Below the pieces are notes generated by a model. The model did not search any database. It was not told the DNA's origin and worked only from the letters and a program-made list of their open reading frames with translations. DNA of 64,000 nucleotides. It comes from Entophlyctis helioformis (taxonomy: Eukaryota; Chytridiomycota; Chytridiomycetes; Chytridiales; Chytriomycetaceae). Position 1 is the stretch's first letter, and each line of letters opens with the position of its first letter. Both the position numbers and the translations under genes were made by a program. Shown piece by piece: positions 1 to 10,834 of the stretch. The stretch covers positions 1-64,000 of the forward strand of contig JAHLKH010000015.1 in the NCBI GenBank assembly GCA_025526915.1, written 5' to 3'.

Positions 1-3000
1 GCGCTGCTTCACGATCCTAAGGAGGCAGATGCATTTGCCAATCGCGTCAAGAATGCATATGTTGCTGACCTGCTGTCGCTGGATGGTGGTGTGGCTCTTG
101 CCAAGAGCTTCCTCAATGCCTTTGGCGTTTTCGTCTACCATGATGAGTCAGGGACTTTTGCCAACACGGTCACATTCCCAACCAGCGACAGCAGTCAATC
201 TGGCAATGTGCCAAAGAAGAGGCAAGTCCTTGCATGACTGGTCATGGCATGGTGGCATAGATCCGTTTGCAATGCATGGCACTCTAAACTGGACCATCTC
301 TCACCACATGGCAACGACAACAGCGTGGCTGTTGGACGCGACCACCATGCATCAAGCAAAGTATGTATGCATGCATGTGATCTCTTGGTGTGTCCTGCAT
401 GACTGACTCTGTGCTTCTGTCTTTGATCCAACCACTGGATCGCGATGCAGGTGCCAGCCTAACATGACAGCTGCCTTGTGATCCATCCCAAGGCGCAGCG
501 AGGCAAGCAAAACCCCAACATCATCCATCTCATGCAGGACGACATCAGGCCACTTGTCAGGAACATTGTCAAGGAACAGCAGCTCAGTCTTATGCTGGAC
601 AAGGTCAAGGACTGCCCCACCGCACTCGACTGCGTCCTCTGACATGTGGCCCGATCGCATCACTCACATCACCAATGGGGTCAAAGGCCGCAACATTCTC
701 GCAAAGATCAGCAGGTTGGCAAGTGTGCAACTGTTGGAGATTGTCCGCAAGCAGGCTCGTGAAGCGGAAGAGCGGGCAAAGCTTGGCCCAAAGGATCGGG
801 CTATTTGGGATGGACATGTAAGTTGCTGCATGTCTCTGATGCATGTGCACTCCTCGCCTGGACGTGTCAAACTCAATCCACTGCTCATTGTACAGGGCGC
901 CGCTGAAAGGATGAAGAAGCAGTTGGGCAAGATTGTCAATCCTCTGTGCAAATCACACCGCCACCTATCGACGCCAAGTATGCGTTGCTTGTATTGGGAT
1001 CATGCCAACTCATGTACTGACAGCACCTTCTTTGCTGAACGGTGCTATTCCAGAAACAGATGCACAGAAAGACTCACAGCAAGGCACACAGCAAGGCACG
1101 CAGCAAGTCAAGCATCAAGGCAAGGCCATCACCCAAGGCAGTTCCCCATTGACCGCTGCCGACATCTGCAACAAGGCCGCGGACAGGCTGAACAAACTGA
1201 GAAGCATCACAGATGGCCAACCAGTGACACGCCACGAGCAGCTGAAAGAGGTCATTGACTTGCTAGAGTCCATCATCAAGCAAGCCACAGTACGTCTCCA
1301 TCTTCACTGGCTGTGTGTGCATGCAATGACTTGGCATGATTGCTCATTGTTCCACTTGACAGGAGGCTCAACTGCCCAAGCTGCCCAAGCAAGAACCGCC
1401 ATCCGCCGACGGCCAGGCTGGTCAAGCAGACTGCAAGATCTTGTATCTCAATCAAGATGCAGACATCCGGACGACGGTCAGTTCTGGTGTTCCATTGTTG
1501 CTTGCATATGCATTGTGTGCACTCGGAATGCATTGCTGATGGTGCATCCAACCTCCACAGGCGCGACGCCAAATCACCAAGCAACAGGAGGCTGCGAACA
1601 AGCAGAAGCGCGAAAAGCAAGCTGCCAAGGCTGTGGCAGACAAGGCCATCGACAGGAACAAGGAGGGTGCACGCCGGCAAGACCGCCACACCCAACCAGT
1701 GGACCCGAAGCAGACGTGAGTGTTGTACACTGTGCCATGTGCCTTGGGCATGCTTGCTGACATGTGTGGGGTTTGCAGACGCAAAGATGGAGCACGAGTG
1801 GCACAAGGTCGGGTTGACAGAAAGGGGGGACGCCTCACGTCAGGGGCACCCATGACGCTCCCTGCGGCCATTGGCGGCAACAATCAACAAGCTGCTGTGC
1901 ACGCGCCCGGTCAACCTGCTGCCGACACGCCTAGTCAAGCCGCCACGGACGCAACCAATCAAGCCGCTGCAGACGCACCTGATCAACCTGGAGAGGATGC
2001 ATCTGATCATCGTCATATGAGAGTGCTGCTGGAGGTATGATTTAGGATTGCCATTCTGCCTGCATGCATGGCTTTGAATGTACTGACTCAGAGGTTGGCT
2101 TGCATGGTGCTCAGGACATGTTGTCAGGCGGCCCGCAGAGCGCCCCGATCTTTGGCGTTCATGCCATCAGGTCATCAACAAGTTGGACACGCCGCCAACT
2201 TATTGAGGACATTGTCGCGAGGATTCAATTGTTCACGGTCGGCGTGCGGCATGCCGGCCTTGTCGTCATTGGTGCTGTCGTCGAGGAACTTCTCGAGCTT
2301 GACCAGGATGCGCCTCTGCCACCGTCGTACCATGTCTACAAATGGCCTGATGGCAAGGCGACTCAGTATTGTTTCCTGGACGCTGATCTCAAGGACCTCA
2401 ATGACCTTGGCGACAAGGACATCATCAAGGGCCTTGGCGCTGTCACAAAAGCGGAGCTCTTGTCCGGTCAGTTCACGCTTCGCGAGGACATTGCCGCGCG
2501 GACCATGTACGGTGCAAGTCAGTATAATGGCAGCAGCAAGCACCCTCGCTTTGGCCATCGTGTGCGACTGGTCAAGGGAACAAGACTCGAGCGCGTCATG
2601 TTTGAAAAGGTTGAGACGCGCAAGTTGCCCAACGGCCAGCCACCAGCACCAGCAGCACCAACAGTGCCAACGCCCAATGAGCTGCTTGCGATGCTTGTCG
2701 CCAGTGAGTTGGGTGGCCAGACATCCACGGCCTGCATCCTGCGGCACCTCTCGTTTGTCCTAACGGGCGAGCAGATGGTCAAGCCGATGTCCATCATGCT
2801 CACGCTCAATGTGTGGCTTGTCACGGTTGTCCAGCTGCTGATCCATTGCAGCTGGACACCTGGCAGCATGACCGACCAAGCTGCACCACCAGCCGACACG
2901 ATCAAGGCTGACATGGACACTGGCAATGCGCAGCAGGCAGGCGCGATGCGGACCACCACGCGGATGGCCGAGATGAAGGCAGGCGCGCGTCGACCGGCCA

Positions 3001-5638
3001 AGAAGCAGCAGACTCATGGGCGGCATCCAGACATGTGGTGGTCGAGCTTGCACCCAGCTGATGCACAGCAGGCCGACACACAGCAGGCAGTGGTGCCTTA
3101 TCGGCTTGTCAACACCCTGTGCGCGCGTGCGACCAACCAGATCTTTGAAAACCTGGCGAGGGAGGTGAGCGCCACACTCGCCAAGCACTTCATCGAGAAC
3201 CGGTCAAAGCTGGCATTGGTCGCAGCCCAGAGAGCAATGCCTGCTGTGACTCCCAAGCAGATTGCAGCGTGGGTCGATGCCATATTCAAGCCACTCAAGA
3301 CCACCAAGGTTGCCAGGCATGCTGCTGCTCAAGACGCCATTCAGGACGCCGCTCAGGACACTGCTCAAGACGCCCCATTGCCGGCCATCAAGGACGACGC
3401 CATGGACGACGCCATGGACGCCACTCAGGATGTCGCTCCTCCTGCCCCAAGTCTCAAGCGGACCGCGTCACAGCTTCTGCTGGCCACCGATGGCAGCACA
3501 TCCAAGAGGCGAAAGGACGAGACTACTGCCCCTGTCGCCACAGATGCCATGCAAGACACACCACCAGCCGCACAGGACGGGGACGCCATCGAGATCCCAC
3601 AAGAGCTGAAACCAATTCAGGCGATTGTGCGCAGCATGTCAACATCGGACATTGGACGGTTCTACCAACTCCTCAAGCTCGCTGGCACTTCAGTGATGAA
3701 GCTATGCCCGCAGCCAGCAAGCCGTGACCCGTTCATCCTCGTCACTGAGGCCACGCTCTTTTGGGCGGTGGTGGGGCTGCAAAGCGATCGCATTGGCAAT
3801 GAGCACGATCCTGTCCTCCAAGCATTGCAAAAGGAGCTCCTGGCCGCAGTTGGTAAGTTGCATGTGTCTATGCCAATGCCAATGCTCTTTGATGCTGACA
3901 CTGCACTTTTATCCAAGACTACAAAGATGCCAAGTTGGAGCTTGGGACTGACGACAAGGTCATCCAAAGGGCTTTCAGCAATAGCAAGGAGCTGGCCATC
4001 CTCGACATCCTCCTGCCTGGCCTCCGCCCCAAGAATCGATGCCGTCCAACGCAGGCCGAGGGTGATGAGGCCGCGGTTGATTCTCAGCCTCTGGTGGCTT
4101 CAAAGCAAGTGATCAGACAAGGCAGCATCATGACGGATGGATACAGCATCTACCAGCTGGCACTGGACTGCCGCGCAAACCGTCCAGAGTCCCTCGCAGT
4201 ATGTGGCGTGCTTGAATGCGATGGTGCACACATGGATTCTGACTGCCGCCTTGATCTGCAGATCCCAACGCAGCGTCTTCAGGCGAGCAGCCGTGGCTTG
4301 TTGACGAGGCTGATGGCGAGCCCAATTACATTAACGGCGAATGTGAGTTGCTGTGCCAATCCAGACGCGCACTTGTTGTCCACACTGACTGACATGCCAT
4401 CCACAGCCACCAATCCAGCCGACTCATCAGCCACCAAGCCAAAAGCGACCAATCCTGTAAGTCACTTGCATGCTAAACTCGCGCATTGGTGCACATGCAT
4501 TGCACATTCCTCACTCATGCCATGGCATGACAGGGCAAGCTCAGCTTCTACGCCTCGCAGCGATTGCTCAACATTGTCAAAGCCAACAAGTTGTTCACCA
4601 ACAAGGGCTACCGGTTTGTGCGTATTGTCAGCTTTGATTGGGGCCAGCGGTACCTGTATGGCGCGTCCAGCATCTTGGTCGATCTCAGAGACTTTTCGTA
4701 TAAGCTCGAGTCCAACTATGTGCTCTCCTCTGGCATGGCACGAGCTGAGGGCATCTTTCAGCGGTGGTATGCATGCAATGACTCTGCCACGTGCACTCTT
4801 GACCAGATCAACTCACAGAGCCTGCCTCTTGTGCCAGGCTCAACAATCGATATGCCAAGGCGTCCGACGTCCACGAGGCCATTGCATTCAAGACAGCAAA
4901 GTATGCCGATCCAGGCGTCTCAGCAGGCGAGAGAGCCTTTTGGGATCTGCGCTGCCATGCGTACTGCACGCCATTCCTGAATGCATGGGTACGTTTTCTC
5001 TGTCTCTGGATGCCCATTGACATGGCCGCCATGCTGCTTGATCGCCTGCTGATCGCACTGCATGGCATGGCATGGCATGGCATTCCACAGAAGGTCAAGG
5101 CCAAGCGGTTCACCATGCGCAGCAACAGCATGTCAATTCGCGGAAACGCTCTTGAGGGCATCATGAATCTGGCAGGATCAAAGACTGGAGAGCGTGCATC
5201 TCATGCGTCTCAAGGCCTCCCTGTCGATCCAAAAAAGTCGGCAGAGGACAACATTCCCGTTGTCTGGGCATTTGGCATCGACTTTACAGGCCAAGGTGGC
5301 CGGCACGCTGTGTTTGAGAAGTTTCTCATCAGGCATCTGCGGTCGTCTGGATATGCCTATGTGCGTCTGATGCCACGCTGTCCATCCATCCATCCATCCA
5401 TCTGTGCACCAACTGACACAATCATGCACACACACAGATCTACCGCTGCAACAAGAATCTGACCAGCCAGATGTGTCCGCAGTGCAAGCAGCGGATCCCA
5501 GACAAGAACCGCACCAACCTGCGACGCTACGAGTGCACAGACTGCAAGACCGTCTACCACCGCGATGTGCTTGGTGCCACCAACATCGGAATGGTTGCAC
5601 TGGGGCATCTGCTCTTTGGACACGGCCGCTCTACTTGA
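1..5638 (+). CDS. Fanzor/TnpB-like RNA-guided nuclease family protein, large multi-exon, 5' end outside window
   Basis: Predicted exons: <1-221, 471-~817 (with an internal frame jump near 600-640), 896-977, 1024-1289, 1363-1476, 1561-1715, 1779-2034, 2115-3852, 3918-4198, 4291-4342, 4407-4456, 4534-4766, 4838-4988, 5091-5360, 5438-5638. All junctions I checked keep phase. The C-terminal exon carries a zinc ribbon CPQC...YECTDC followed by YHRDVLGATNIG, the arrangement around RuvC-III in TnpB/Fanzor. Upstream are a block containing SIMTDGYSIYQLALD, typical of the pre-RuvC part of Fanzors, and VSFDWGQRYLYGA, a plausible RuvC-I aspartate site. The family is known as OMEGA-like RNA-guided DNA endonucleases spread by transposons. 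About 1,000 residues upstream of the core are unrecognised and include acidic Ala/Gln/Asp repeats. The fusion of the first 2 kb with the Fanzor part is inferred from phase-compatible splicing and could instead be two genes. Confidence 0.75.
222..470 (+). other. GC-AG intron in the Fanzor-type gene
   Basis: The reading frame from base 1 leaves an exon ending AAG-AAG-AG, followed by the strong GC-type donor GCAAGT at 222. The acceptor CAG is at 468-470. Joining 221 to 471 keeps frame (phase 2, giving AGC) into an open frame that runs on to 639. No nearby GT donor gives an equally good join. Confidence 0.55.
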
Positions 5639-5993
5639 CGCACACGCCAGTCGATCCGCCTGTCAACAGCATCGCAGCAGTGTCCTCCACAGACACAGCA
5701 AGTCACTCCATGTGACTTCCAGCACCACCACCAGCACAATATGAATCGGGGAACCTCCCGATCGACCTAACGGGTCACTTTTTCTTACGAGAAAGGTAAG
5801 CCGCTCATGCCTCGCCCGCTTGTCGTCGCATGCTCGTTGCTGACTCGAACCTTCCATCGTGTGATGTGCTTGCTTGCATTCGTCGCTTCTCGGGTCGAAT
5901 CCAATTCCAAAACGCTTGGTAATTGTTTGAATGTCGGGCCATTTGCCGGCGGTTTGCCGGCATTCCCTCGCCCTATTGCCCACCCCTCGCAGC
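5639..5993. other. Intergenic 3' flank of the Fanzor-type gene with a hairpin cluster
   Basis: No convincing coding sequence. The stretch 5745-5796 holds three adjacent short hairpins: ATCGGG/CCCGAT at 5745-5762, GACC/GGTC at 5764-5776, and TTTCT-TACG-AGAAA at 5781-5794. Fanzor and TnpB guide RNAs are usually encoded at or just after the 3' end of the nuclease gene, so this is a candidate guide-RNA scaffold or element end. It could equally be 5' leader of the oxysterol-binding protein gene that starts at 5994. Confidence 0.35.
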
Positions 5994-8900
5994 ATGCCAA
6001 ACACGTTGCCCGCTGCTGCTGGCAGTGACAGCAACAGCAACAACAACGACGCTGCCACCGGTGCTAGGCCCATGTCGCACTCGCACTCGGCTCTGCGGCC
6101 GTCCGCCAGCACCCACGCCGCCTTGGCGCCGTTGGCCTCTGGCTCAAGAGCATCGGCCTCACAAGCACATCATGTGCCGCAGACGGCTGCTGCTGCTGCT
6201 GCTGCTGCTGCCTCCAAAGGTACACACACATGCTCTGTCGACATGGGGCCATGTCGTTCCATGCTGGCTGGCTGACTGACTGGCTGACCGACCGACCGAC
6301 CGGCTGGCTGGCTGACCGACCGACTGGCTGACCGACCGGTGCACCATCGCCGGTGCCACTTGTCAACACAGAGCACTCGCTGGAAGACTCGGTCAAGCAT
6401 CTGCAGCTTGTCAACGCACTGGGCACAAACGACCCCGAAGCTATCCTCAAAGCCATTGCACGCCTCTCTGCAACGACTGCCGCCGCCTCGGGCCCGTCAA
6501 CACCGTCGTTTGGCAGCCCACTGCACCTGGTCATCACGCTGTGTGCCAAGCCGATCGCCGAGCGCGTCATCACGACCTTTTGTGTTCCTCAAGGCGCATC
6601 TGGTGCACCATCTGCTGGTGCCACCCTCGTTGATCACAAGGACGCTGGGTCGGGCCCGCAGTCGTGGGTCAATGTCCGCAACTCTCCAGATGGCGAAACG
6701 CCGCTGCACATTGCTGCTCGTCTGGGCCGCGCCGATGTCGTCGACCTGCTTTTCCGCATCCCTTCCATCGACGACACCATCCGAACTGCCAGCGGCAAGA
6801 CGGCGGAAGAGCTTGCCAAGGACGAGCGAGTCATTGCCACTCTGTCCAGTACGTCCCGCTTTGACACTCGAGTCGAATGCATCGCCACCATCACATCCAC
6901 GCAGAGGGCCCTGTCTCGGCCCTTCGTGTTGGAGTGCACGCCGACTCAAACTTACCATCGGCTGGCTCGTGCAAACAGAGCATCGCGAGGAGTGCTGCGA
7001 CCTCGTGCTGACCAAAGTTCGGTCGCTGCTCAGCACCAATGCCACGCAGGCCGTCATTGACCTCTTTTCCAGCAACATCCGTGCCCGTTCTTATCTGGCG
7101 CTCGGCTGGATTGACATCAACGGCCCAATCGACGCTGCTACCGACCGCAGCATCCTCCATCTTGCTGCAAAGGCAGAAGACATGAACCTTGTCAACTGGG
7201 CTCTTTCGCATGGAGCTGACCCAAACGTCAAGGACAAGCGTGGCAAGAAGCCGTGGGAGGTGAGTTATGGCCTGCCATGCTGCCGTAGGCGTAACCGCGA
7301 ACTTTGTGTATCTGACGCCGTCACACTGCCGTCGCGTTGCCGTCCGTGTTCTTGTACAGCTGTGCAAGAAAGACAGAGTCAAGGAGCGACTCAAGAATGG
7401 TAACGATGCCGCGACTCTTGAGGTTTCTGTCCATTGACAGCCTTTTAACACTGCCATGCGTGCTCCCAGCACTCGCACAAGCTCCAATCCAGTCGCTCAA
7501 CTTAACTGCACAGGCAGTCGCGCCGAACGTGTTGGCTCCCCAAGGCGTGCACCGCGGCCCTCAAGAAGCACCCGTTTTAAAGGGCATGCTGTTCAAGTGG
7601 ACCAACTACACCTCAGGCTACAAGTCGCGATACTTTGTCCTCGAGAATGGCTCATTGTCGTATTACCACGACGCCACCGACTACCCGCATAGCTGCCGAG
7701 GCTCCATCTCAACCATTGCCGCCAACGTCACCATGCCCGACGCCAACGACAACAGCCGCTTTGACATTGTTGCGTCGGGGAACGTCAAGTACTCGATAAA
7801 GGCCCGCAGTCCTGCTGACGCCAAAAAGTGGGTCTGGTATCTCATGGAAAGCAAGCGCTTTATGACCGACCTGCGCAAGGCTCAGATGGCCGGCTCGCTT
7901 GGCAACGCCTCGCTTCCGACCGCGGCTTCGTATCCAACAACCGTGTCGCCCCGCACATCGGGCACGTCTTTAGCCGCCTTTGGCGCATTGGCTGCAACAG
8001 CTGGCTCGGCAGCGTCGTCGACCATGGCACTGTCGACATCAGGCATGGCGTTAGCGAGCCATGCAGCTGGAGGCGTCGCACCAATCCCTGCTGCTCTGTC
8101 GGCTCCAGCTCTTGCAGCAGACAAGTTCTGGGATCCTGCCGACGGAAACGATGATGATGATGATGATGATTTGCAGGACGCCACAGACGACGAGCCGCCT
8201 GTTGAAGACCCGCTGCTCAGCAAAGTCTCGTCCGCCCTCTCTCTCTTGAAGCTCAAGTCGTCCGACTCTGCCAGTGCAAGTACACGCCCGTCCACAACCA
8301 ACGCGCTCCCGGCCCCTAATGGTAGCCGAACATCCGCCGGAAACCGCCAGAGCCTTTCGGCAATGGCAAATGCTGCCACTTTCGGCCCGACAGAAACGGA
8401 GCTTACCGCGGGGGCTGCCTCTGCTTCTGATGCCGATGCCCCTCCGCAACGCCGCTCGATTCTGCTCAACGCTGATCACGTGCCGATCCTCGAAACCATG
8501 CGCGCCAAGTCACGCACCAATGTCCATACGCTGCTTTACTTGCTGGACGTGCAGCTCGAGGTCCAGGAGCGTGTTGTGCAAACATTGGTGGACAACCTGT
8601 CAGCATTACCCCCGTCACCAAACGCCGCACAAACCACGGCCGATCCAGAGTACCACAGCAGCTTGGTTCAGCTTCCATTGCTTCTCCAGGACTCGGTGCA
8701 GCACATCCAGCAGACAGCCAAGCGAATCGTACGGCTCTACGACTCGCGTGAAAAGATGTGGGGCAAGAGGCTACATCGCGAGGTCGAATCACGCAAGCGA
8801 TGGGAAGAGGTCGTCTCGTGCGTGGTTGGCATTGAAAACACGGCTCCGTTTGCTGCACCAGACATTCGCACAGATGCCGACGAGCATGGTTCAAGCACGC

Positions 8901-10834
8901 AACAGCGCGCATCCACGTCCGAGTCTTCTGCAATGTACGCTACGCCACAGCCGGCTGGCAACGCCAGCACCCCAACTTGGCCCAACCACTCGGCCAAGCC
9001 GTACGTACGACCAACGGAAGCAAGCCGCAAAGGCACACTTGAGTCGCCGAGCGCCTCGTCGTTTGGCGGAGACAGCGCCGGCAACTCTGCACATGCCCAT
9101 CAATCCAGTTTCGACGACATGGATGACATCCCCGATCAAGGTGATGACGACGATGGCGAAGACGATGTCTTTTACGACGCGCATGATGGCCAGACAACCG
9201 AGAGCTTTATCGAAACAGTCCTCGGCCTTTCATCCATGGATCAGCCTCGTCCCATGCCCACGTCGCTGGATCTGGTGCACTCGCCGACTTCGCCTGTTCT
9301 GGACTCGTCCAACTTTCCGAGCATGGACTCCCTTGTCGCCTCCTTTTCTGGGTACGATCCCATCGGCAAGGCGCGTCGCAGCCTCCCGCTGGATCCGTCA
9401 AAGCCAAAGCCGACCTTGGCTGTCTGGTCATTCCTCAAGTCGGCCATTGGAAAGGACATCTCCAAGGTTACGCTCCCCGTGTTCTTCAACGAGCCCCTGA
9501 GCATGCTCCAGCGGATGTGCGAGGACATTGAGTACATTGAGCTCCTCTCGCTTGCAGGGCGGATTGGCAGCAAATCTGGGCACCCGTCGACGTCTGCCAG
9601 CGATCCAACAGACATCCACAATGATCCTGCAGCGCTTGCGGCATCTTGTCTGCAGCTCGATCTGAACCATGCCGAAGGACTTGCAGGCGAGGACGCAAGC
9701 TTGCTGCGACTCATGCTGGTCGGCGCATTTGCCATGAGCAACTACTCGAGCACCGTTGGCCGCTCGAACAAGCCCTTCAATCCGATGCTGGGCGAGACGT
9801 TTGAGCTGGTGCGCAAAGACAAGCGGTTCCGGTACATTTCGGAGCAAGTCTGCCACCATCCGCCGATCAGCGCCTGCTACTGCGACTCGCCAGACTACAC
9901 ACTGTGGACCGAGGTCTATGTCAAGTCCAAGTTCTGGGGTCGATCGCTTGAGCTTCAACCCCTGGGGACCTGCCACGTCTCCCTGCCAGTCTTTGCGCGC
10001 GACCCCAAGTCTGGAGCCGCCATCGTCGCCGACTCGGAGCACTACAGCTGGAAAAAGGTCACCACATGTGTGAACAACATCATTGTCGGCAAGCTGTCGA
10101 TCGACCACAACGGCGACATGGTGATCCGCAACTGGCGCACGGGCGAGGAATGCGTCATTACGTTCAAACTGAAGGAATCGGGCGGCTGGTTTGGCGGCGG
10201 TGGCAGCAGCAGCAGCCGCGATGATGGCGGTGGCGGCGAGCTTGTTGGCCAAGTCAAAGATGCCACTGGGCGCGTCCGGTTCGAGCTCAAGGGCCGCTGG
10301 GATGACCAGCTGATGGCGATCCCCGTGTCGCCGCCACCGAGTGCGATGCTCCAGCGTCCGTTCCTGTTGTGGAAACGCACCCCGACACCAGGCAATGCGG
10401 CACAAAACTTCAACTTTACCGAATTCGCCATGACGCTCAACGAGATCAACCCGCAGCTAAGATCCCTCTTGCCGCTGACCGACTCGCGGCTCCGGCCAGA
10501 CCAGACGGCTATGGAGCGCGGCGAGTGGGATCTGGCTACCAAGTCCAAGGAGAAGCTCGAGCTGTACCAGCGGAACAAGCGCAAGGAAATCGTTGCGCAT
10601 TACAATGCAACCGGCATCTCGAATGGACCCAAACGAGATGTTGCAGCGATTGATATTGGCGAGGCTTGGTGGACGCCGCGGTGGTTTGTGCGCGAGATCG
10701 AGCCCGACACCATGGAGGAGCACTGGCGATTTACCGATGAGTACTGGACTTTGCGACAACGAGCAGCAGTCACCAACACCTGGCCAGAGTACGTGAGCGA
10801 CGTTTTTGGCTTGACGGATCCTGACATGGAATAG
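5994..10834 (+). CDS. Oxysterol-binding protein, Osh1/Osh2 type (ankyrin-PH-FFAT-ORD)
   Basis: Five exons (5994-6219, 6372-6848, 6979-7259, 7360-7399, 7470-10834) sum to exactly 1,463 codons including the stop. After an Ala-run N-terminus come ankyrin repeats (ETPLHIAARLGRADVVDLL; SILHLAAKAEDMNLVNWAL...GADPN), then a PH domain beginning LKGMLFKWTNYTSGYKSRYF. A FFAT-like motif DDVFYDAHDG within an acidic stretch would bind VAP proteins of the ER. The C-terminal lipid-binding domain carries the family signature EQVCHHPPISACYCDS. Domain order matches yeast Osh1/Osh2, which move sterol/PI4P at ER contacts with the nucleus-vacuole junction, Golgi or plasma membrane. The length of about 1,460 aa is slightly longer than yeast Osh1/2. 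A 7-Asp run and disordered Ser/Ala linkers separate PH from ORD. Intron 1 contains a tetranucleotide satellite. Confidence 0.95.
6253..6343. repeat. CTGG/CTGA/CCGA tetranucleotide microsatellite
   Basis: Interrupted tandem tetranucleotides (ctgg, ctga, ccga) inside intron 1 of the oxysterol-binding protein gene. Non-coding. A six-frame reading gives only Ser/Arg/Gln/Val repeats on the other strand. Confidence 0.85.

Follow-up and report, generated by a model that had tools for sequence, protein, structure and literature searches.

A probably dead copy of a Fanzor transposon at a contig end in Entophlyctis helioformis, with an apparent FEN/XPG-like fusion in its relatives

What is the large, intron-rich Fanzor-type gene at the beginning of contig JAHLKH010000015.1 of the chytrid fungus Entophlyctis helioformis (assembly GCA_025526915.1): a host gene for an unusually large RNA-guided nuclease, or part of something else? 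We analyzed the first 64,000 nucleotides of this contig on the forward strand (the window), on which an earlier note, made from the letters alone, had proposed the former. The locus is a multicopy DNA transposon and not a host gene, and positions 1–5988 are its 3′ part; the window holds just this part because its base 1 is the contig end. For complete copies, we consider it fairly likely that the element is a ~10-kb transposon with terminal inverted repeats, encoding a protein of ~1,875 amino acids that runs from a FEN1/EXO1/XPG-like domain through a middle region to a Fanzor nuclease and works with a guiding 3′ RNA, the window copy being probably dead.

The copy number in the genome is high. 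The TNB zinc ribbon (PF07282) has 205 candidate places, and all 150 that were scored match, so the match in the window is not due to chance. At the DNA level, window 2115–5900 has seven other full-length copies at 90–93% identity and many partial ones (40 scored of 346 candidates). The copy called C38 has a 5′ terminus that recurs with 91–94% identity at 39 further places (86 candidates, of which 40, C38 among them, were scored), and 34 of these 40 matches begin at query bases 10–20, the terminal repeat lying at base 12. The element ends are CGAGGGG and CCCCTC, and the 3′ end of the window copy is at 5988. Read by eye, a perfect 8-bp target-site duplication flanks three of the seven copies checked (C38, C178 and C3); in C13 and C312 the match is six of eight bases, and C130 and C89 show no duplication. 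The element measures ~10 kb in C38 and C178, where both ends were read, and the ends are further apart in C3 and C312. The host gene-like setting described in the earlier note thus does not hold. As a separate observation, C121 and C312 (L062 and L061) are 98.9% identical upstream and have an identical 3′ flank, which reflects either a segmental duplication or an assembly artefact.

The C-terminal part of the encoded protein is supported as TnpB/Fanzor type. Eight exons of the window (2115–3852, 3918–4198, 4291–4342, 4407–4456, 4534–4766, 4838–4988, 5091–5360 and 5438–5638) form a single open frame once spliced, of 992 letters including the stop. As the earlier note had read, this frame ends in a zinc ribbon, CPQC..CTDC, followed by YHRDVLGATNIG, and carries SIMTDGYSIYQLALD and VSFDWGQRYLYGA upstream of it. 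Its assignment of this order of motifs to TnpB/Fanzor proteins also stands: PF07282 reaches 43.3 bits, above its cut-off of 26.3, and the published motif D-X(125,275)-[TS][TS]XX-C4-X(5,50)-RD (PMC3627910, in excerpt) fits, with 190 residues from D to TS in both C38 and the window and five from the last Cys to RD in C38. The profile search that the note proposed for these exons succeeded only in part, since NCBIfam guided_TnpB matches the C-terminal stretch alone (E=4.3e-7) at 29.5 bits, below its own cut-off of 100. The catalytic residues of SpuFz1 are D383, E541 and D606 (PMC11423790, in excerpt). When E541 is placed by eye at the Glu before TS, this Glu is kept in 46 of 48 distinct contexts, Lys replacing it in the window copy and in L044. 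The RuvC-I Asp is present in 51 of 51 matches to a pattern that allowed other letters, overlapping loci included. No significant sequence match to the Fanzor part was found in the PDB, and the five proteins that match it in the protein search are all from E. helioformis.

The rest of the gene becomes legible through copy C38. By comparison with the diverged copies C2 and C37, we modelled C38 as 19 exons (E1–E19, C38:76610–83628) encoding 1,875 amino acids without a stop. Its 18 introns all end in an AG acceptor and begin with a GT donor in 17 cases and a GC donor in one, that after E4. We set the start of E1 and the boundaries of E5, E9, E13 and E14 by hand or by the open frame. Exons E1–E12, which include the FEN/XPG-like domain, place ~1,420 amino acids before the Fanzor part, so that the extension is even larger than the ~800–1,000 residues estimated earlier. 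By homology to C38, the window contains 16 exons, namely part of E4 and then E5–E19; judged in the same way, E1–E3 and most of E4 are upstream of the contig end, and the gene start is outside the window. The spliced frame of at least 15 exons claimed in the earlier note is therefore borne out for the eight open C-terminal exons and for the number of exons by homology, whereas the frame is not open throughout 1–5638. The features of the window copy are as follows (E4–E18 are mapped from C38).

1..221, plus strand: E4 (3′ part), end of the XPG/FEN-like domain, with the GC donor AAGAG|gcaagt; by homology to C38 and the public protein P0006
324..360, plus strand: E5, linker of 37 nucleotides, frameshifted in the window copy
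451..817, plus strand: E6, middle region, with +2 and +1 insertions and TGA at 640
896..977, plus strand: E7, middle region
1060..1289, plus strand: E8, middle region
1363..1476, plus strand: E9, middle region
1561..1715, plus strand: E10, middle region
1779..2034, plus strand: E11, middle region
2115..3852, plus strand: E12, 579 amino acids, no Pfam match
3927..4198, plus strand: E13, where the Fanzor part begins (SIMTDGYSIYQLALD); alternative acceptor 3918; 1-nucleotide deletion at ~4192 relative to C38
4262..4342, plus strand: E14; acceptor uncertain, 4291 keeping the window frame open
4407..4456, plus strand: E15
4534..4766, plus strand: E16, RuvC-I motif VSFDWGQRY
4838..4988, plus strand: E17
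5091..5360, plus strand: E18 (VVWAFGIDFTGQGGRHAVFEKFL)
5438..5638, plus strand: E19, zinc ribbon CPQC..CTDC and YHRDVLGATNIG (PF07282); Lys replaces the family Glu in NKNLTSQMC
5742..5797, plus strand: three tandem hairpins, a candidate guide-RNA scaffold, at the start of the conserved 3′ block
5742..5940, plus strand: conserved 3′ block of ~200 nucleotides, ending CGGGCC, aligned in 30 loci
5941..5988, plus strand: terminal segment of the window's subfamily, ending CCCCTC; element 3′ end

The open window frame uses acceptors at 3918 and 4291, where mapping from C38 gives 3927 and 4262. The frame of E19 continues in C38, with a mapped exon end that corresponds to window 5715. Relative to C38, the window copy has frameshifting indels at ~334, 460, 650, 4192 and 5622, and an in-frame TGA at 640. 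It has a Lys three residues before TS; should the Glu found there in most contexts correspond to SpuFz1 E541, the window copy would be unable to cut. Given the five frameshifting indels, the stop and the replacement of the presumed catalytic Glu by Lys, it is probably inactive.

The unusual feature of the family, a FEN/XPG-like domain ahead of a Fanzor, is mostly outside the window, in relatives of the window copy, as nearly all of the XPG-like N-terminus is upstream of the contig end. In these relatives the domain carries HVD, HVDG, EADVCIAR, GDSDL and NDY (D..D..E-x-D..D-x-D..D), which we take to be the acidic motifs of FEN1/EXO1/XPG nucleases in their order and which we then compared with host XPG-like proteins. 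All four rows of alignment A1, in which identity goes down to 39%, carry E147, D149, D175, D177 and D235, and the Asp residues of HVD and HVDG are kept in the three rows that cover them. The Pfam model XPG_I_2 is the top or only match in five of eight public proteins (P0006–P0010) and the only match in C38; apart from XPG_I_2, Pfam has no match to the XPG, middle and E12 parts. We modelled P0006 with AlphaFold2 from 14 sequences (mean predicted local distance difference test, pLDDT, 61; predicted template-modelling score, pTM, 0.49). A Foldseek search with this model returned 24 PDB matches at E<=1e-3, all of them EXO1, FEN1 or ExoIX (best E 7.6e-6, probability 1.00; template-modelling score, TM, 0.26–0.42). 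A FEN/PIN fold is thus likely on the predicted structure, with a putative nuclease activity. In searches of 5.8 billion protein sequences, two of the three of which scored the 7,999 candidates sharing most words, the XPG part was found just in E. helioformis. Compared with the XPG part, two host proteins, one XPG_I_2 and one RAD2-like, show motif similarity only, with hhalign probabilities of ~1% or less.

The N-terminal and C-terminal parts are linked in the genome. XPG-E1 has 144 matches across the genome (148 candidates, all scored), of which all but one lack a stop. Counting scored zinc ribbons only (150 of 205), 71 of the 144 are followed on their own strand by one at a distance of up to 14 kb (5.6–7.2 kb in 56 cases); the controls gave one on the opposite strand and none upstream. 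The coordinates used here drew on the 114 matches starting near the query start, among the matches listed (181 in all). We also computed the ratio of nonsynonymous to synonymous substitution rates (dN/dS) against C38, keeping matches of 40–97% identity with >20 synonymous sites. Median values are 0.25, 0.25 and 0.26 for XPG exons E1, E2 and E4 (4, 5 and 5 copies), 0.23, 0.43 and 0.27 in three stretches of E12, and 0.37 and 0.33 for Fanzor exons E17 and E19, but 0.52 for E16. The synonymous rate itself differs within the same copies (for instance, in L017, 0.84 in the first E12 stretch versus 0.14 in E16), and the identity between the window and C37 changes from 44–64% (2251–4000) to 87–94% (4501–5500) and 74–78% beyond. 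This unevenness along the element indicates exchange between copies.

Are the two parts translated as one protein? The link is the short exon E5, which measures 36, 30, 39 and 33 nucleotides in four subfamilies, a multiple of three in every case and with fitting phases. The public models P0007 and P0012 run across E4 into E5 and E6. Further downstream, P0001 follows our model through E16, E17 and most of E18 before going out of frame, as P0003 and P0004 do at E17. From the splice phases and the two public gene models we infer the E4-E5-E6 fusion, with which other models disagree. The GC-AG intron at window 222 and in its homologues, which in the five copies examined has a stop five codons inside, is a possible splice switch; it may select between a free nuclease and the fusion.

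The guide RNA would lie just downstream of the coding region. Of 202 candidate matches to window 5639–5880, 40 were scored; we aligned the 30 best of these, and ~200 nucleotides from TGAATCGGGG to CGGGCC are common to the 30 loci. The hairpins at 5742..5797 fold with a z score of −2.17 (9 of 200 shuffles as good). Two of the three lose no pair in any of the 30 loci, and the third varies in sequence and folds in six of the seven variants tried, the exception being L047. For the first 48–72 nucleotides of the block, z ranges from −0.90 to −3.08 in seven variants. No Rfam family exceeds its cut-off for the block. On position and conservation only, we regard the 3′ block as a candidate guide RNA. 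In L029–L058 the 3′ end is of two kinds, one at GGGCC and one with ~48 extra bases that end in CCCCTC.

A mechanism can be proposed from this anatomy. In complete copies, a single protein would consist of the N-terminal 5′ nuclease domain, the middle region and the C-terminal Fanzor/TnpB nuclease with its zinc ribbon. Transcription across the element's 3′ end would yield a structured RNA as guide for the Fanzor domain. This domain would open an R-loop and cut a target that matches the element-adjacent sequence, for example the empty site left after excision; the FEN/EXO1-like domain would then trim a flap or 5′ end, or cut the R-loop junction, and repair would copy the element back. Such an RNA-guided polypeptide would couple the guided cut to end processing, and the transposon would control the repair of its own break, a proposal that we hold tentatively and rate at somewhat less than an even chance.

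Several observations weigh against the explanation given for complete copies. For the N-terminal domain, XPG_I_2 scores 13.7–16.9 bits against a cut-off of 24.2, no Pfam XPG model reaches its cut-off, the XPG part of C2 has no Pfam match at all, PDB sequence and profile searches found no nuclease of the XPG/FEN1/EXO1 family, and the P0006 model is weak (pLDDT 61, TM at most 0.42). For the gene model, two C38 acceptors were chosen among alternatives for keeping the frame open and several sites were set by hand; the diverged copy C2 has stops in its Fanzor part when spliced at the positions transferred from the window; without splicing at the GC donor, each of the five copies examined runs into a stop after five codons, where the public model P0006 ends, and P0013 continues past this donor in another frame. 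Constraint is uneven, with dN/dS of 0.41 and 0.78 in the two usable copies of XPG E3 and medians of 0.82 in E6 and 0.85 in Fanzor E18, and RDV.GA.N is present in 44 of 48 zinc-ribbon contexts and absent from four. RNAalifold finds no compensatory change in the RNA block, and the whole 3′ block folds no better than shuffles (z −0.33). Only C38 is intact among the six copies examined (C38, window, C178, C3, C121 and C312), and we found no transposase in the element.

Other explanations were weighed. One transcription unit could yield two proteins that act in trans, a free FEN/XPG-like nuclease when the GC-AG intron is left unspliced and a fusion or a Fanzor-only protein when it is spliced. The stop after the GC donor falls at the same place in the five copies while the residues preceding it vary, and P0006 ends there, both in favour of this arrangement. 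However, the E4-E5 intron (65–102 nucleotides) is too short for a usual promoter, E5 stays in frame in all four subfamilies, P0007 and P0012 join E4, E5 and E6, and in C38, C2 and C50 the frame of E6 lacks a Met from the stop before it up to the conserved exon start. We judge this arrangement unlikely. We are slightly more doubtful that the N-terminal domain has the FEN/XPG fold without nuclease activity and binds DNA or partners only. The closest Pfam model, XPG_I_2, is presumably Asteroid-type, and one acidic site is Asn in the public model P0009, but the five acidic residues listed above are invariant across the four A1 rows down to 39% identity.

About as doubtful is the view that the family is a graveyard, in which the protein now works nowhere, the copies were spread by the transposase of another element and the constraint dates from the past. 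Frameshifting gaps in five of the six copies fit this view (relative to C38, six in C178, two in C3, and 15 each in C121 and C312, where gaps were counted singly and some sum to multiples of three), as do the loss of the presumed catalytic Glu from the window copy and the state of the transposases searched for in the genome, MULE not being found and KDZ having four matches on three contigs, three of the four with stops. Against it, C38 is intact, 143 of 144 XPG-E1 matches have no stop, dN/dS is well below 1 in many exons and the Glu is kept in nearly all distinct contexts. Moreover, many of the frameshifting gaps are single bases and may be assembly errors, and gaps may also stem from the alignment. 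The first interpretation of the locus, as an ordinary host gene that is rich in introns and encodes a large Fanzor, draws on the many introns with standard splice sites; we reject it because of the copy number and conserved ends, the target-site duplications and the broken window copy also speak against it, and it retains hardly any probability.

The origin of the element was also considered. A MULE origin was rejected, as PF10551 has no match in the genome. There was no hAT match either, a result that is uninformative because the control genomes gave none. KDZ transposase makes 8-bp duplications. One KDZ fragment, at C396:222–449 (L071), is ~9.1 kb upstream of a Fanzor zinc ribbon, on the opposite strand; the 640 bases at this fragment have no blastn match to the collected loci, and the stretch has only weak tblastx matches (E 0.002–0.007), two of which fall next to the C38 element and outside it. 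At the 5′ end of the element, a divergent gene on the minus strand (L065 ~7861–9400; C38:73860–75400) consists of several open segments, and the three pieces tried have no Pfam match. A search of viral contigs gave 23 pattern matches, none confirmed. Next to the window copy, an ATG at 5994, five bases past the element end at 5988, may start a host gene (window 5989–10834) with ankyrin repeat, PH and oxysterol-binding domains, and the insertion could affect its promoter.

The Fanzor transposon copy in the window is thus real and probably dead, and it represents a new variant, with an apparent FEN/XPG-like fusion in its relatives. To our knowledge, TnpB and Fanzor only cut, and turning the break into a transposon copy is left to the host. 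If the fusion reading is true, it would suggest that some elements bring their own end-processing enzyme, a Fanzor tied to a flap or 5′-exonuclease, which would be a natural model for repair-steering editing tools. The family offers well over a hundred natural variants in one genome; since these differ in their N-terminal halves but resemble one another in the Fanzor half and the 3′ block, what each part contributes is testable.

How does the element compare with known systems? With the EXO1/FEN1/XPG (RAD2) family, the N-terminal domain shares the order of acidic motifs and the predicted fold; it differs in scoring below the Pfam cut-offs, in being apparently fused to a Fanzor and in its place in a transposon. 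The host XPG_I_2 protein at C38:89474 has a similar EAD..IAR ... DSD core, but it is outside the element and its similarity is weak and non-significant. We found no XPG-Fanzor fusion described in the Fanzor literature searched. SpuFz1, from the chytrid Spizellomyces punctatus, is alike in its RuvC and zinc-ribbon nuclease, its many copies and its guide RNA at the element end, but it has a ~2.1-kb locus with one open reading frame, and the excerpted source does not mention a FEN-like domain (PMC10432273). Most Fz1 proteins are 600–700 amino acids long (PMC11423790, in excerpt). Further parallels are in Fanzor1 elements as excerpts of PMC3627910 describe them: one family reaches ~150 copies, one has a common 3′ Fanzor half with differing 5′ parts, and MuDr-like elements have no transposase and make 9-bp duplications. 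The Entophlyctis element shares with Fanzor1 elements the motif D-X-[TS][TS]XX-C4-RD and carriage by DNA transposons, and is set apart from them by its 1,875-amino-acid, 19-exon protein with a FEN/XPG-like domain and by 8-bp duplications instead of the 9-bp ones of the MuDr-like cases.

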